Source: Methanothrix harundinacea 6Ac
Lineage (GTDB): Archaea; Halobacteriota; Methanosarcinia; Methanotrichales; Methanotrichaceae
DNA length: 64,000 bases
Assembly: GCF_000235565.1 (NCBI RefSeq)
Contig: NC_017527.1
Location: 806,001 to 870,000, forward strand
Direction: 5' to 3'
This document shows positions 40,993 through 51,251 of this stretch, piece after piece. Position 1 is the first letter of the stretch; each line of letters opens with the position of its first letter. The notes under the pieces were generated by a model. The model made no database searches and was not told the DNA's origin. It saw only the letters and a program-made list of their open reading frames with translations. Both the position numbers and the translations under genes were made by a program.

Positions 40993-41398
40993 GGTCGAGA
41001 TTTTGGCGGAGCTGCCGTCCCGCGATGAGCTTTTTCCCCGTTGAAGTTGAAGGCGGGGGGAGGGTCCAACTGAGCCCTCCCGACCGCTGATCGATTAATG
41101 TAAAATATTTGCCCGAATTTTTCTCCAATTTCTCACCATATGGAGGGAGAATTTTAACATAATTTTGTCAAATATTAGTTTTCCATCCTATCTTCTATCT
41201 GGGGCATGGCGGAAAAAATTGTTCCATTTCTTTGTAAAATGATTCTTTTAAATTTGGTCTTTCAACCATTTGTAAATCCTATTTATTCGATTTAAATGTC
41301 AAATATACATCCACTTTATATGACATGATCCCACAAGGTTTATATCAAGCAATTAACCCACTATAGCGCGCGGATATTTGTCAGATAGAGGTGAAATG
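40993..41398 (+). promoter_or_regulatory. cdh promoter region
   Basis: An AT-rich 400-base region between aroD and cdhA. GTTTATATC (about 41338-41346) is the best TATA box, predicting a start near 41370 and a short leader of about 30 bases. GAGGTGA at 41388-41394 is the cdhA ribosome site. Another TATA-like CTTTATATGAC (about 41315) and repeated TTTGTAAAT-like words upstream (41230-41280) could be regulatory. Confidence 0.55.
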
Positions 41399-43828
41399 AT
41401 GGATAAGATGGAAGGCAGTTTCTCCGTTGAGGACATGCAGAATGTCCAGATCAACATCGGCGCGGTAGTGAAGGAGGTGGAGGAGTGGGACCAGCCCATG
41501 GGACCGTTCCCGTACCCGAGCATCGCCACCCTTCGAGACTGGGACTTTAAGCTGATAAACAGGTACAGGGTGTTTTACTCGCCCATCTGTGACCGTTGCA
41601 CCCTCTGTACCTACGGCCCCTGCGACCTGACGGGGGACAAGAGGGGCGCCTGCGGCCTGGACCAGGCGGCCCAGCAGGGGAGGATCGTCCTCCTCGCCGT
41701 TCTGATGGGCTGCACCGCCCACTGCGCCCACGGCCGACACCTCTACCACTGGACCCTGGAGAAGTTCGGAGACCTCCCCTTCAAGATGGGCGACGAGATC
41801 CTGGTGGACGCGCCTCTGACGAGGACGATCACCGGGACCAAGCCCAAGACCCTGAAGGAGTTCGGGCCGGTCCTCAGCTACGTCGAGGAGCAGGTGGCCC
41901 AGCTTCTCGCCTGCACCCACACCGGCCAGGAAGGAAACTACAGGGACTTCGAGTCGAAGGCCCTCCACGCCGGGATGCTCGACTCCCTCGGCAAAGAGGT
42001 CTCGGACATGATCCAGATCATCGCCTACGATATGCCCCGGGGTGACGAGGACGCTCCCCTGGTGGAGTGCGGGATGGGGACCCTCGACAAGGAGAAGGCG
42101 ATCCTGATCACCTACGGCCACAACCTTGCGGGCTCTGCAGAGGCGATGTTCTACGCCGAGGATAACAAGCTCTGGGACAAGGTCGACATCGGCGGCGTAT
42201 GCTGCACGGCCATCGACAACACCAGGATCGGCGAGGGCCTCGGCTACCCTGAGGAGATCAACACGAAGTACAGGATGGTCGGGACCAAGGCCAAGATCGC
42301 CGGAGCCATGGGCTGGTGGAGGAAGATGGTCGAGGCAGACGTCATGGACTGCGTCATGGTCGACGAGCAGTGCGTCTATACCAACGCCCTCCAGGAGTGC
42401 CAAGAGAAGAAGGTGCCCCTGATCGCCACCAACGAGAAGATCATGCTCGGCCTCCCCGACAGGACGAACGATCCCGTCGACGAGATCGTCGACGACCTGG
42501 TTAACTTCAGGATGCCGGGCGTCGCCATCATCGACCCGATCAAGGCCGGAGAGGTGGGCGTCAGGACCGCCATCGCCGTCAAGCCGAAGCGCGCCGATGA
42601 GAGGAAGAAGGCCTTCATCACCGAGGAGGAGTTCAAGAAGTACGCCGAGTCCTGTACCTACTGCCACTCATGCCAGTTCGTCTGTCCTCCCCACATCAAG
42701 ATAGGCGACGTCGTCCAGGAGGCGGCGAAGGGCAACCTAGAGCCTCTCAGCTCGACCTACGAGATCTGCGTCGGCTGTCGAAGGTGCGAGCAGGCCTGTC
42801 CCCAGGATATACCGATCCTCAGCCTCTACGCCTACGCCAACCAGGAGTACATAAAGAACCAGAAGTTCAAGATGAGGGCCGGAAGGGGTCCAGTCAAGGA
42901 CACGGAGATCAGGCGTGTGGGAGCGCCTCTGGTTCTGGGAACGATCCCCGGGGTCATCGCCATCATAGGATGTGCGAACTACCCGAACGGGACGAAGGAG
43001 TGCTACGACATCGCCCGGGAGTTTGTGGACAGAGGCTTCATCGTCACCACCACCGGCTGCATGGCGATGGACATGTCCCTCTACACCGACGCGGACGGCA
43101 AGACGATCTGGGAGCAGTTCCCCGGCGGCTTTGACGGCAGAAACATCTGCAACATAGGCAGCTGCGTCTCCAACGCCCACATCCACGGCGCTGCTATCAA
43201 GGTGGCTACCATCTTCGCCGGGAGGAACGAGCGGGCTAACTACGACGACATCGCCGACTATATCCTCTCCAAGGTGGGAGCCTGCGGCGTCGCCTGGGGA
43301 GCCATGTCTCAGAAGGCGGCCTCCATCGCCACCGGGTTCAACAGGCTCGGGGTCCCGGCCGTCGTCCAGCCCCACAGCGTCATGTACAGGAGAGCGTTCC
43401 TCGGCAGGACCGACAAGAAGGAGGACTGGGAGATCATCGACGCCCGTGACGGCTCGCGGGTATACTGCGAGCCCGCTCCGGAGCACATGCTCTACGTCGC
43501 CGAGTCGGTGGAAGAGTGCATGCTGATGATGGCCAAGCTCTGCTTCCGGCCGAGCGACAACAACTCGGGCAGGATGATCAAGCTGACCCACTACTGCGAC
43601 ATCAGCATGAAGTACTTCGGCTGCATGCCTCCAGACTGGCCGATCTACGTCCGCCACGCCTCGGACCTTCCCCTCAAGTGGAAGGAGGATATGCTCAAGG
43701 AGCTGGAGTCGAAGTACGGCTGGGAGATCGACTGGAAGAGGAAGGCGATAGTCAGCGGCCCGATCCGGAAGTCCGACGTCAGCTTCGACCCGACGAACAT
43801 CGAGAGGAAGATCAGGGTGAAGAAGTGA
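41399..43828 (+). CDS. cdhA: CO dehydrogenase/acetyl-CoA synthase alpha subunit
   Basis: Catalytic carbon monoxide dehydrogenase subunit of the archaeal acetyl-CoA decarbonylase/synthase complex. It oxidises the CO released from acetyl-CoA at a Ni-Fe-S C-cluster and feeds electrons to ferredoxin. Cysteines for the B and D clusters occur in PICDRCTLCTYGPCDL (about 65), with MGCTAHCAHGRHLYH just after. Two ferredoxin-type 4Fe-4S motifs follow, CTYCHSCQFVCP (about 420) and CVGCRRCEQACP (about 460), an archaeal-type feature, then C-cluster ligand regions (GCANYPNG, NIGSCVSNAHIHGAA, GACGVAWGAM). ATG 41399 is four bases after GAGGTGA; TTG 41378 would be upstream of it. About 809 residues. First gene of the cdh operon. 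Confidence 0.97.
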   Translation: MDKMEGSFSVEDMQNVQINIGAVVKEVEEWDQPMGPFPYPSIATLRDWDFKLINRYRVFYSPICDRCTLCTYGPCDLTGDKRGACGLDQAAQQGRIVLLAVLMGCTAHCAHGRHLYHWTLEKFGDLPFKMGDEILVDAPLTRTITGTKPKTLKEFGPVLSYVEEQVAQLLACTHTGQEGNYRDFESKALHAGMLDSLGKEVSDMIQIIAYDMPRGDEDAPLVECGMGTLDKEKAILITYGHNLAGSAEAMFYAEDNKLWDKVDIGGVCCTAIDNTRIGEGLGYPEEINTKYRMVGTKAKIAGAMGWWRKMVEADVMDCVMVDEQCVYTNALQECQEKKVPLIATNEKIMLGLPDRTNDPVDEIVDDLVNFRMPGVAIIDPIKAGEVGVRTAIAVKPKRADERKKAFITEEEFKKYAESCTYCHSCQFVCPPHIKIGDVVQEAAKGNLEPLSSTYEICVGCRRCEQACPQDIPILSLYAYANQEYIKNQKFKMRAGRGPVKDTEIRRVGAPLVLGTIPGVIAIIGCANYPNGTKECYDIAREFVDRGFIVTTTGCMAMDMSLYTDADGKTIWEQFPGGFDGRNICNIGSCVSNAHIHGAAIKVATIFAGRNERANYDDIADYILSKVGACGVAWGAMSQKAASIATGFNRLGVPAVVQPHSVMYRRAFLGRTDKKEDWEIIDARDGSRVYCEPAPEHMLYVAESVEECMLMMAKLCFRPSDNNSGRMIKLTHYCDISMKYFGCMPPDWPIYVRHASDLPLKWKEDMLKELESKYGWEIDWKRKAIVSGPIRKSDVSFDPTNIERKIRVKK

Positions 43829-43841
43829 GGAGGCGATAAAA

Positions 43842-44387
43842 ATGGCAGTCGACACCACCAAGAACGCTGTACCCTTTGAGATGGCCCAGATCCCGGGGCC
43901 TGAGATGGCTAAGGCCTACAACACCGCGGTGATTGGGGCCATCATCAAGAAGGCGAAGAGGCCCCTCCTCGTGGTGGGGGCCGAGCTCTTCGAGGACCCC
44001 GTGATGTTCGATAAGGCGATCGCCATCGGGAAGACTGGAGTTCCCATTGCGGCCACCGCCCACTCCATCAAGGGCTTCGTCGAGCGGGGCTACACCGAGA
44101 ACGTAACCATGATCGGCCTGCACCCCCTGACCAACTACCTCCGGTTCAAGGACTGGCAGGGGCTGGACGGGAAGGGCCAGTACGACGTGGTGATCTTCAC
44201 GGGGATCTTCTACAAGTTCGCCAGCGCCATGTTCTCGACGCTGAAGAACTTCAACCGGGATATCAAGCGGGTCTCCATCGACCGGTACTACCACGTCAAC
44301 GCCGACATGACCTTCGGAAACCTGGCCTTCGACCCGGAGAAGTACCACGAGGCTGTAGACGAGGTCATCGCAAAGCTGAAGGCGTGA
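43842..44387 (+). CDS. cdhB: CO dehydrogenase/acetyl-CoA synthase epsilon subunit
   Basis: The 181-residue epsilon subunit that binds CdhA in the alpha2epsilon2 subcomplex and may take part in FAD or electron handling. KAYNTAVIGAIIKKAKRPLL, VVGAELFEDPVMFDKAIAIG and TGVPIAATAHSIKGFVERGY match the family (DHS-like fold). GGAGGCGATAAAA precedes the ATG, 13 bases after cdhA. A CCCC-ATTTTTT-GGGG hairpin with a T run follows the stop by about 12 bases, so the first transcript may end here. Confidence 0.95.
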   Translation: MAVDTTKNAVPFEMAQIPGPEMAKAYNTAVIGAIIKKAKRPLLVVGAELFEDPVMFDKAIAIGKTGVPIAATAHSIKGFVERGYTENVTMIGLHPLTNYLRFKDWQGLDGKGQYDVVIFTGIFYKFASAMFSTLKNFNRDIKRVSIDRYYHVNADMTFGNLAFDPEKYHEAVDEVIAKLKA

Positions 44388-44894: not shown

Positions 44895-46301
44895 ATGGCA
44901 GAAGAAATCGAACTGGACATGTCCCCCATGTACGAGGGGGAGCGGATCAGGAAAGGCGATATCTGGGTAGAGATGGGCGGTCCGAAGGCGAAGGCCTTCG
45001 AGCTCTCGGTCGCAGGGTCGATGAACGAGGTTCAGGACGGTAAGGTTACTGTGGTGGGCCCCGACATCAGCGCGATCCCCGAGGGTAGCACCATCCCCTT
45101 CGGCATGATCTTCAAGGTGGCCGGCGAGCTCATCGAGAAGGACTTGGAGTCGATCATAGAGCGGCGGAACCACGCTCTTCTCTCCTACGTCCACGGCCTG
45201 ATGCACTTAAACCAGCGTGATGCGATCTGGATGAGAGCGGGCCTCGACCTGAAGAAGGCTGGAGTAACTTCCTTTGAGCAGGTCTTCAAGAACGTCATGA
45301 ACCTCTACAAGGCTGAGATGCCCTTCATCGAGAAGATGGAGGTCACAGTCCTGACGGACCCCGCGGCCGTGGAGAAGGGTCTTGAGCAGGCCCACGCCGC
45401 CTACCACGCGAGGGACGAGCGGGCTAAGGGGCTCCACGACGAGGAGGTTGACGTCTTCTACGGCTGCACTCTCTGTCAGGCCTTCGCCCCGACGAGCGCC
45501 TGCTGCGTCACCCCCGACAGGCCATCGCTCTGCGGAGCCATCACCTGGTTCGACGGCCGTGCTGCGGCGAAGGTGGACCCCGAGGGCCCCCAGTTCGCGA
45601 TCCCCAAGACCGGGGTCATCGACGAGATCGCCGGCGAGTACGAATCTGTGAACGAGATGGCAGGTTCGAGATCCGGCGGCGAGTATTCGAGGATGGCTCT
45701 GTACACCTTCTTCGACGCCCCCCACACTTCCTGCGGCTGCTTCGAGACGATCGGCTTCTACATGCCCGAGGTGGACGGGATCGGCGTCGTCGACCGTGAC
45801 TTCAGGAACCCGACCCCGAACGGTCTTCCCTTCTCGACCATGGCCGGCCAGGCTGGCGGCGGCAAGCAGGTAGTCGGGTTCCTGGGCATGGGGATTCTCT
45901 ACTACTTCTCGCCGAAGTTCCTCCAGGCTGATGGCGGCTGGAGACGTATCGTCTGGATGCCGAAGCAGCTCAAGGAGCGGGTGAAGGACGGTATCGACCC
46001 CGAGATGTTCAGTAAGATCGCGACCGAAGAGGACGCGCCAGACCTTGCTGCTCTGAAGGCCTTCCTTCTGAAGGTCGACCACCCCGTCGTCGACGGCGTC
46101 GAGCGGAAGGTCGACGGCAAGAAGGTCACCGAGGGCTGGAAGGTGGAGGACCCGTCGGAGTACGAGGAGCAGGTGATCGCCTTCATCGAGGAGACGGGCG
46201 GCGACATCGACGTCGATGCGATCAAGGCGAAGCTGAACATGAGCGAGGGCCAGTTCATGCAGGTGATCGAGTACCTGCAGAACGAGGGCATACTGGAGTA
46301 A
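44895..46301 (+). CDS. cdhC: acetyl-CoA synthase (CdhC, beta subunit), without its usual C-terminal tail
   Basis: Beta subunit with the Ni-Ni-[4Fe-4S] A-cluster that makes or breaks the acetyl C-C and thioester bonds. A-cluster cysteines are in VDVFYGCTLCQAF (about 190) and DAPHTSCGCFET (about 278). GAITWFDGRAAAKVDPEGPQ and GQAGGGKQVVGFLGMG are further family segments. The frame begins at 44823; I choose ATG 44895 (GGGAG upstream), which gives the usual start MAEEIELDMSPMYEGERIRK and 468 residues. The C-terminus differs from Methanosarcina CdhC as I recall it: instead of an Ala/Pro-rich linker and GGIKL tail it ends in a small helical segment (AIKAKLNMSEGQFMQVIEYL). The tail appears as the next gene. 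Confidence 0.95.
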   Translation: MAEEIELDMSPMYEGERIRKGDIWVEMGGPKAKAFELSVAGSMNEVQDGKVTVVGPDISAIPEGSTIPFGMIFKVAGELIEKDLESIIERRNHALLSYVHGLMHLNQRDAIWMRAGLDLKKAGVTSFEQVFKNVMNLYKAEMPFIEKMEVTVLTDPAAVEKGLEQAHAAYHARDERAKGLHDEEVDVFYGCTLCQAFAPTSACCVTPDRPSLCGAITWFDGRAAAKVDPEGPQFAIPKTGVIDEIAGEYESVNEMAGSRSGGEYSRMALYTFFDAPHTSCGCFETIGFYMPEVDGIGVVDRDFRNPTPNGLPFSTMAGQAGGGKQVVGFLGMGILYYFSPKFLQADGGWRRIVWMPKQLKERVKDGIDPEMFSKIATEEDAPDLAALKAFLLKVDHPVVDGVERKVDGKKVTEGWKVEDPSEYEEQVIAFIEETGGDIDVDAIKAKLNMSEGQFMQVIEYLQNEGILE

Positions 46302-46346
46302 GAATTTATAGTATCTCTGTATTTGAGGGTGTAGGAGGTTATAGGA

Positions 46347-46541
46347 ATGGCCAAGAAACTGTCACTGAAGCTGAAGTCGAAGGAACCTGGAGCACCTGCC
46401 GCGGCGGCTCCGGCCGCAGCAGCAGCCCCGGCGGCAGGAGCTGCCCCCGCCTTTGCCATGTCGGCGGGCGGAGCGGGCGGGATCAAGCTGATCCTCAAGG
46501 ACGCCAAGGTTACCATCGAGAAGGTGACGCTCGCCAAGTGA
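46347..46541 (+). CDS. free-standing CdhC-tail-like protein
   Basis: A 64-residue protein: basic start (MAKKLSLKLKSKEP), an Ala/Pro-rich linker of about 22 residues, then SAGGAGGIKLILKDAKVTIE and a short end. The last part closely resembles the C-terminal tail of Methanosarcina CdhC, from memory. GGAGG lies about eight bases before the ATG, and the gene follows cdhC by 45 bases, so it is probably cotranscribed. No frameshift links the two, since cdhC ends with its own distinct segment. It may complete the beta subunit in trans or bind another subunit. cdhD and cdhE are not in the window. Confidence 0.75.
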   Translation: MAKKLSLKLKSKEPGAPAAAAPAAAAAPAAGAAPAFAMSAGGAGGIKLILKDAKVTIEKVTLAK

Positions 46542-47032
46542 GCGTCCACCTCTTCTTCATTTATCCTCCCTTCCTCTCCTCCCGTTCTCTCTCCTCCACC
46601 TGGTCCTAAGCCCGGCAGTTCGTAGGGGAAACTCCGTCCATCTCCCGGGCAGCCTCTCCTTCTGGACGGCCTCTCTCACGATTTTCCCTACCTCCCCGGC
46701 CCCGGGGGCTTCAGGCCCCCCCGTGGCCCTCTCCTCGCTTCCTGGTCGGCGGGGCTGGCCGGAAGATCGGGGCCTTATTTTACCGCAGGCCTCTTAATTT
46801 TCCCACCTCCGGCGCTCCACGAGGATCGAGGAGACCCTCAAAGGATATGGAGGAGGGCCCTCCAGATCAGGCCGGTGGGGGGAAGGGGAGGTCCCAAGAT
46901 CCGCCAGAATTATTATTCGATACCAAAAATGACCAGAAGGGAACGTTTAAGTATTAGTTTCTCAGGTAGGTTACTCTCAAATGAAAAGGATGGTTGGACG
47001 GAGTCGGCGTGGTTTAAAAAGGAGGATATAAG
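46542..47032 (+). promoter_or_regulatory. intergenic region with terminator-like tract and hdrED promoter
   Basis: Directly after the small gene lies about 65 bases of nearly pure C/T (46545-46610). The next 300 bases are GC-rich with no recognised gene. A TATA-like GTTTAAGTATTAG (about 46942-46954) precedes hdrE by about 80 bases, and GGAGGATATAAG is its ribosome site. Confidence 0.5.
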
Positions 47033-50239: not shown

Positions 50240-50620
50240 CTAACCCATCACCAACGAGTACCTCGTTCTATAGTAGTACCCGGTGGGATACCTGTAGTAT
50301 GGGTAGTAGTAGCTGTACGGTGGAGAATACGAATAATAGTAGCTGCTCGGGTAGTAGTAGGTGTAATAGTACCCGCTCGGGTAGTAGTAGGCGTAGGGAT
50401 AATAGGTGTAAGGATAATAGTCGTAGGGATAATAGGTGTAGCTGTAATAAGAGCTGTAATAAGAGTCCCAGGGAGAGAGCCAGTCGTGGGGAGGGGTATG
50501 ATCTGGAGGAGCGATAGAGGATCTCGGACCTTCATCTCCCGGAGGATGGGCGGAAGCGGTGGCGCAGAGGAGCGCCAGGGCCACTATAGGTAGCATAATA
50601 ATTGCCTTAATAACTAACAC
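50240..50620 (-). CDS. Tyr-rich secreted small protein, paralogue 1
   Basis: A 126-residue protein: signal peptide (about 1-24, AIIMLPIVALALLCATASA), a Pro-rich segment, then about 75 residues very rich in Tyr, with Ser and Pro (YYSSYYSYTYYPYDYYPYTY and similar), ending YRYPTGYYYRTRYSLVMG. The start is unclear: a GTG at 50620 opens the frame, while the paralogue has ATG four codons on, where this gene has ATT. The leader sequence of the two is nearly identical. Not related to a known family in my memory; it could be a sheath, adhesion or aromatic-fibre protein. Confidence 0.7.
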   Translation of the reverse strand: MLVIKAIIMLPIVALALLCATASAHPPGDEGPRSSIAPPDHTPPHDWLSPWDSYYSSYYSYTYYPYDYYPYTYYPYAYYYPSGYYYTYYYPSSYYYSYSPPYSYYYPYYRYPTGYYYRTRYSLVMG

Positions 50621-50879: not shown

Positions 50880-51251
50880 TCAACCTATGACCAAAGGATA
50901 ACCGGCCCTGCCATAGAAGTACCCCGTGGGGTACCTGTAGTAGCTGTACGGAAAGTAGTACCAGGTGTAATAGCGGCCCATCGGGTATGGATAGGTATAA
51001 TAATAACCCGCCGGCCTGGAGTGCGCGAAGCAGGATCTTTTATGGTAGCAGTAATCGTAGGGGCAGTTGGCTTGGCTGGAGAACGACTTATAGTTCGAGG
51101 GAGACAACCAGCCCTTCGGTGGCTCCTTTTTATACAGAGACTCGGTCCCATCCCCCGACCCCCCGCAACATGGAGAATCTGCGGCTCCAGTGGTGCAGAG
51201 GAGCCCCAGGGCCAACAGTGGAAGTAAGATCATAGCCTTCATAGCTAACAC
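50880..51251 (-). CDS. Tyr-rich secreted small protein, paralogue 2
   Basis: A 123-residue paralogue of the preceding gene in tandem. The signal peptide (MKAMILLPLLALGLLCTTGA) is followed by a Cys-containing segment (DSPCCGG, NCPYDYCYHKRSC), then the Tyr/Pro-rich end YYTYPYPMGRYYTWYYFPYS and YRYPTGYFYGRAGYPLVIG. ATG at 51242 after GGGGTG is an alternative to GTG 51251. The shared leader (ATCGCCCCT, then GGGGTGTTAG) suggests common control. Cysteines may form disulfides not present in paralogue 1. Confidence 0.7.
   Translation of the reverse strand: MLAMKAMILLPLLALGLLCTTGAADSPCCGGSGDGTESLYKKEPPKGWLSPSNYKSFSSQANCPYDYCYHKRSCFAHSRPAGYYYTYPYPMGRYYTWYYFPYSYYRYPTGYFYGRAGYPLVIG

Follow-up and report, generated by a model that had tools for sequence, protein, structure and literature searches.

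A separately encoded C-terminal tail of the acetyl-CoA synthase subunit CdhC in Methanotrichaceae

The C-terminal tail of CdhC, the beta subunit (acetyl-CoA synthase, ACS) of the ACDS complex, is encoded in Methanotrichaceae by a small gene of its own, designated T1 here, that lies downstream of cdhC. The separation is real, is family-wide and is undescribed as far as literature searches reach: a search of titles and the beginnings of abstracts, with most subscription journals outside its scope, found neither a separate CdhC tail nor a winged helix mentioned together with acetyl-CoA synthase and CODH. According to a published account of the complex (PMC11474084), ACDS cleaves acetate in the archaea responsible for some two thirds of biological methane production, limited proteolysis of ACDS gives a truncated beta subunit, and the CdhC extension of roughly 75 residues, which is not resolved in the one structure that the account names and whose function is unknown, may help ACS to swing between CODH and CFeSP. 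A tail that exists as a separate small protein in one lineage makes tail function testable by mixing parts.

The window (the whole stretch of DNA analysed) comprises 64,000 nucleotides from Methanothrix harundinacea 6Ac, and its features are collected in Table 1. The cdhC product consists of the A2 and A3 domains of acetyl-CoA synthase followed by a probable C-terminal winged helix (WH) and reaches 619.9 bits against the TIGR00316 profile, well within the family (cut-off 355.95). Alignment with Methanosarcina thermophila CdhC (PDB 9c0s_E) covers residues 4–407 only and leaves the last 60 CdhC residues outside, in agreement with an earlier, sequence-only reading of this DNA in which CdhC lacked its usual tail and ended in a helical segment instead. 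That reading also placed a 64-residue tail gene with its own ribosome-binding site 45 bases downstream; the gap (46302–46346) and an AGGAGGT site ahead of the T1 start are both found. The cdh operon in the window is a shorter accessory operon without T2 (a second tail gene, see below), cooC, cdhD and cdhE. T1 is followed by two genes, one for a membrane cytochrome and one for an iron-sulfur protein; weak family matches suggest that they are hdrE and hdrD. Further downstream, on the minus strand, two adjacent ORFs (50240–50620 and 50880–51251) encode small Tyr/Pro-rich proteins with signal-like starts.

Table 1 Features of the cdhC–T1 region, in window coordinates
Feature	Position	Strand	Basis or remark
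cdhA, ACDS alpha subunit (context)	41378..43828	+	TIGR00314, 1079.9 bits
cdhB, ACDS epsilon subunit (context)	43842..44387	+	TIGR00315, 153.9 bits
cdhC, ACDS beta subunit, acetyl-CoA synthase, tail absent	44895..46301	+	TIGR00316; PF03598, PF19436; ATG 44895, stop 46299-46301, product 468 aa
Tract identical to second genomic copy (G000:C2:2.488-2.490 Mb)	46014..46551	+	cdhC 3' end, gap, T1
Probable winged-helix domain, CdhC residues 419-468	46149..46298	+	stops at second strand (GILE) and lacks the third
AGGAGGT ribosome-binding site of T1	46333..46339	+	7 nt ahead of T1 ATG
T1, CdhC tail as own gene, 64 aa	46347..46541	+	homology, selection
T1 N-terminal strand motif MAKKLSLKLKSKE	46347..46385	+	proposed WH docking strand, binding predicted
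T1 Ala/Pro linker	46386..46475	+	
T1 C-terminal basic hairpin GGIKLILKDAKVTIEKVTLAK, tail proper	46476..46538	+	

The identification of T1 as the CdhC tail, encoded apart, is based on homology. A phmmer search aligned T1 with residues 417–465 of 9c0s_E at E 4.4e-6, the top match among 177,635 distinct PDB sequences, and the small protein is related to the CdhC tail as had been proposed. The NCBIfam cdhC models match T1 weakly (E 0.003–0.005) over their last ~35 positions (421–457 of NF003379 and 429–459 of TIGR00316). T1 also carries the basic hairpin of CdhC tails, with the pattern GG(I/V/F)(K/R)xxxK(N/D)A(K/R)(I/V)xxx(K/R/Q)(V/I)xx; it is not joined covalently to the ACS A3 domain, being set apart by a stop codon and the intervening gap. 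The A2 and A3 domains and T1 thus each find their counterpart in M. thermophila CdhC (9c0s/9c0t), where the tail is covalent and there is no WH, whereas in Methanothrix the WH and the tail reside on two proteins and a paralogue, T2, is added. Bacterial AcsB (the CODH/ACS alpha subunit) likewise shares the A2 and A3 domains, with Z scores of 30–49 for full-length or truncated ACS, but has an A1 domain, and the bacterial-type ACS proteins encountered here are tail-less and are accompanied by a CdhD without an acidic N-terminal hairpin.

T1 was searched for in 60 related genomes, to which the listing adds the M. harundinacea genome itself (G000), and a match was found in 52 of the 60. Within Methanotrichaceae (f1, 37 genomes listed, G000–G036), 32 genomes have a match, always in a short open frame (56–129 aa), whereas in f3, the sister family, it falls at the end of frames of 466–483 aa, indicating that the tail is fused there. 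In the family search T1 was not found in G001 and G014, where a CdhC match is absent too, in G032 and G035, where CdhC is broken by contig ends, or in G002, where cdhC is present without T1 after it. Thirty Methanotrichaceae loci with T1 were fetched (L003–L032), 28 of which show the end of CdhC together with T1; the two are separate in all 28, with a spacing of 13–51 nt, and the same helical segment ends CdhC in each, so that no family member with a readable cdhC 3' end holds both ends in one protein. We rejected a kept CdhC–T1 reading frame as a trace of recent fission, since only 8 of the 28 gaps are multiples of three, about as expected by chance. Most Methanotrichaceae genomes also contain T2, a divergent second tail gene whose product starts as T1 does but has an altered hairpin, GG(I/M)xxELRGAxIxxxEVxI. 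Complete operons have the gene order cdhA-cdhB-cdhC-T1-T2-cooC-cdhD-cdhE, as in L033; the CdhC–T1–T2 part is fixed in the family, with cooC, cdhD and cdhE next where the sequence allows. The earlier reading had recognised T1 and missed T2, which belongs to the full operon and lies outside the window.

The end of CdhC that takes the place of the tail (residues 419–468) gives weak matches to winged-helix families. We modelled CdhC and T1 of G018 as one chain, with one stop codon read through (mean pLDDT 85.5). The model has helices at 422–435, 441–448 and 452–464, and DSSP assigns short strands at CdhC 468–469 and T1 481–482 that are placed as if pairing. In searches with Foldseek and VIA, the best fold matches beyond ACS entries for model residues 419–483 are complete winged helices of the Zalpha, LexA and MarR class, among them 4kmf_A, with a Z of 8.1 (a value that can also reflect common arrangements) and an rmsd of 2.4 over 62 of 62 residues. 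The matched range includes the first seven T1 residues because CdhC, unlike these winged helices, stops before the third strand, which T1 supplies in the model. CdhC alone has the helices and a short strand, and the fold becomes complete only when the T1 strand, tethered in the model, is included; pLDDT there is 55–58 (53–54 at the T1 hairpin). As tethering by stop readthrough favours contact in the model, and as confidence is low at this point, both the strand pairing and the completion of the WH by T1 are to be taken as leads.

A WH profile run on 294 Halobacteriota genomes (threshold E 1e-5 or better) matched 32 of them, 22 in a CdhC-length frame and ten only outside such frames. The 22 comprise ten genomes of Methanotrichaceae, two of f9, four of f10 (Methanoliparia), one of f20, the single genome G062 and, as second copies, two each of f18 and f26. 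A separate tail gene follows CdhC in f9, f10, f20, f18 and f26; in G062 the WH and then the tail occupy one frame of 553 aa. The winged helices align without large gaps, at 29–64% identity to the first row of the alignment. They are probably orthologous, to judge from a profile (A2) built from Methanotrichaceae and Methanoliparia only, for which CdhC is the best genome-wide match in f9 (1.8e-15 and 2.3e-15), f20 (1.9e-6) and G062 (7.6e-6), as is the second CdhC in f18 genome G081 (2.8e-9). Scoring of 42 CdhCs, a set that excludes the orphan of G022 and two paralogues from f8, showed a WH in all 21 with a separate tail, a separate tail in 21 of the 22 with a WH, and a fused tail in 20 of the 20 without one. 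Counted as independent contrasts this comes to five, four in the same direction and one neutral, giving a sign-test p of 0.125; the association is thus suggestive and falls short of significance.

These data bear on how the separation arose. The sequence-only reading spoke of gene fission, and in its recent form this would mean that the Methanotrichaceae ancestor had a fused CdhC, that a stop codon split off the tail and that the WH was gained there. Fused tails in the sister families f3 and f4 of the same class, and in most Halobacteriota CdhCs, fit such a history, but the same WH ends CdhC in f9, in f20 and in the f18 second operons and precedes the tail in G062, the CdhC–T1 frame is not conserved, and six gains or losses of the WH are needed on the tree. 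That tree was built from the CdhC core, without WH and tail, covers Halobacteriota only and has long branches; on it the WH state lies on several deep branches, and the WH with a separate tail occurs to either side of the CdhC root. We therefore consider recent fission doubtful, and fission as originally worded is not supported. The scattered yet orthologous WHs and the fused, WH-bearing CdhC of G062 make it at least as likely that the separate tail is ancestral and was fused repeatedly in other lineages as that it arose by fission, the direction being unproven. A single deletion would suffice to join CdhC and T1 and take out the WH, whilst the reverse calls for repeated domain gain; an old separate state with repeated fusions requires fewer complex steps than repeated fission with repeated WH gain and is favoured on that count.

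As to what the detached tail does, there is in our estimation a slightly better than even chance that T1 is a two-ended adaptor within ACDS. T1 would be a small subunit of the Methanotrichaceae complex that supplies the CdhC tail in trans: its N-terminal strand, KLxLKLKKKE, would complete the WH of CdhC, which stops after the second strand, and its basic hairpin, GGIKLILKDAKxxIxKVxLAK, would bind CdhD, the corrinoid-protein delta subunit, at its acidic N-terminal hairpin. Thanks to the Ala/Pro linker joining these two ends of T1, acetyl-CoA synthase could swing from CODH to the corrinoid protein and back whilst staying in the complex, and in fused species the covalent tail would do the same job. 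T1 and T2 would then be probable added subunits of Methanothrix ACDS, and the CdhD hairpin becomes a named candidate for the partner of the tail. Short protein effectors of methanogens, MtrR and MtrI among them, are likewise reported to target an enzyme complex of methanogenesis; T1 differs from them in being a detached domain of the enzyme itself.

The case for CdhD comes from co-occurrence and charge. The N-terminal extension of archaeal-type CdhD contains an acidic hairpin (typically LEGVxIEGDIELEI), which was found in all 39 tailed operons with a readable CdhD (32 by pattern, seven by eye) and in none of the 19 readable operons with a tail-less bacterial-type ACS, one further operon being unreadable. 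Three genomes with both kinds of operon (G108, G291 and G165) keep to this rule. The co-occurrence nevertheless amounts to essentially one deep contrast, that between archaeal and bacterial-type ACS. Where found by pattern, tails carry charges of +3 to +6 and CdhD hairpins of -4 to -8. In the second operons of f18 and f26, CdhD starts with the KLKKKE motif of T in three of three cases, so that one docking site may serve both T and CdhD. AlphaFold models agree with the adaptor scheme at low confidence in the key places; in a model of the G108 tail with CdhD both hairpins form strand pairs (pLDDT about 43–57), contacts not being part of the readout. Three cases are at odds with the scheme: the T of f20 (G086) has no basic strand, G062 combines a covalent tail with a WH, and G022 has an orphan cdhC. 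One stop after the tail gene of f9 genome G064 there is an acidic ORF of 39 codons (L126:10294-10410, minus strand) that looks homologous to the N-terminal hairpin of CdhD and is degenerate in G121.

If T1 is a bound subunit, the partner of its hairpin might instead be CODH, through an N-terminal extension of CdhA, or other tails, forming an assembly core. The N-terminus of CdhA has a conserved motif of the GSFSxEDLENVQINIG type (L114–L153; GSFSIEDLENVQINIG) whose pattern is like that of the CdhC and CdhD hairpins, the tail profile places its best or second-best window at this motif in about half of 29 CdhA proteins, and PMC11493965 suggests a role for the unmodelled N-terminus of CdhA in stabilising other subunits of ACDS. 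Most of the profile scores, however, lie below background, charge complementarity is strongest with CdhD, and it is CdhD that shares the docking strand in the f18 and f26 second operons; we regard pairing with CdhA or other tails as unlikely, if far from negligible. Most scores obtained with the tail profile were negative, and the CdhD hairpin did not stand out among them. A common origin of the terminal motifs of the CdhC tail, CdhD and CdhA was set aside on these grounds, and shared ancestry is kept as speculation.

A broader proposal, which we advance tentatively and think improbable on balance, is that archaeal ACS began with a detachable tail, its WH end being completed in trans by a small adaptor through the N-terminal strand of the latter, and that exchangeable hairpin modules keep ACDS together (on T1, T2, CdhD, perhaps the CdhA termini, and, in other archaea, free peptides of ~30 residues), fused tails such as that of Methanosarcina being later, repeated simplifications. 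Short free ORFs occur elsewhere: in 13 of 30 loci of f7 (L034–L063), one of ~27–50 codons begins at the cdhC stop or slightly upstream of it and has a T2-like hairpin as its end, e.g. KKVKLILKGAQIHIPELIIEEEE, and CdhC there is already tail-fused. The separately encoded tail of Methanotrichaceae shows that core carbon metabolism includes short peptides, which gene callers can miss.

Nucleic-acid binding is common among winged helices, although it does not define all of them. A reading in which the WH is regulatory or nucleic-acid-binding, and T1 and T2 serve with CooC as factors of maturation or assembly, not as stable subunits, would also fit the full operon, where the T genes are flanked by cdhC and cooC. 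We consider it improbable: T1 and T2 of M. harundinacea contain neither Cys nor His, most relatives carry the orthologous tail covalently on ACS, and the accessory operon in the window has T1 and no cooC.

Over the last 21 codons of T1, nine comparisons with the M. harundinacea gene gave NG86 dN values of 0–0.17 and dS values of 0.14–2.2, which indicates that T1 is under purifying selection. That T1 is a functionless, decaying remnant has next to no likelihood left, given this codon analysis, which largely refutes it, the ribosome-binding site and the family-wide retention, and despite one frame-shifted accessory copy. The two cdhC copies of the genome differ at 82 of 1404 nt, with no difference beyond nt offset 1118, and the two T1 copies are identical (192/192 nt). 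Outside the shared tract of Table 1, cdhC differs from the second copy by about 7%, and the tract, which spans WH and T1, is probably the product of gene conversion.

Accessory operons of sister species have lost one or other gene: T1 is present without cdhC in G008 (L217), cdhC without T1 in G002 (L215), and in G007 (L216) T1 is frame-shifted and cdhC was not detected. The losses are consistent with a T1 that can come from another operon than its CdhC and make action of the tail in trans, as first suggested from the sequence, likely; decay of the accessory operon is a possible alternative. In G022 a solitary extra cdhC with a WH (L214; G022:C1:1657470-1658747) has no T or other cdh gene nearby. 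Divergent CdhC paralogues without a tail occur in f8 (L206–L208, frames of 489–508 aa); cdhD and cdhE were not found in the stretches fetched, and L207 has a divergent cdhA upstream. In f5 (L165 and L166) a bacterial-type ACS lies in a frame of 1378–1407 aa beside a short cdhD, possibly a larger fusion.
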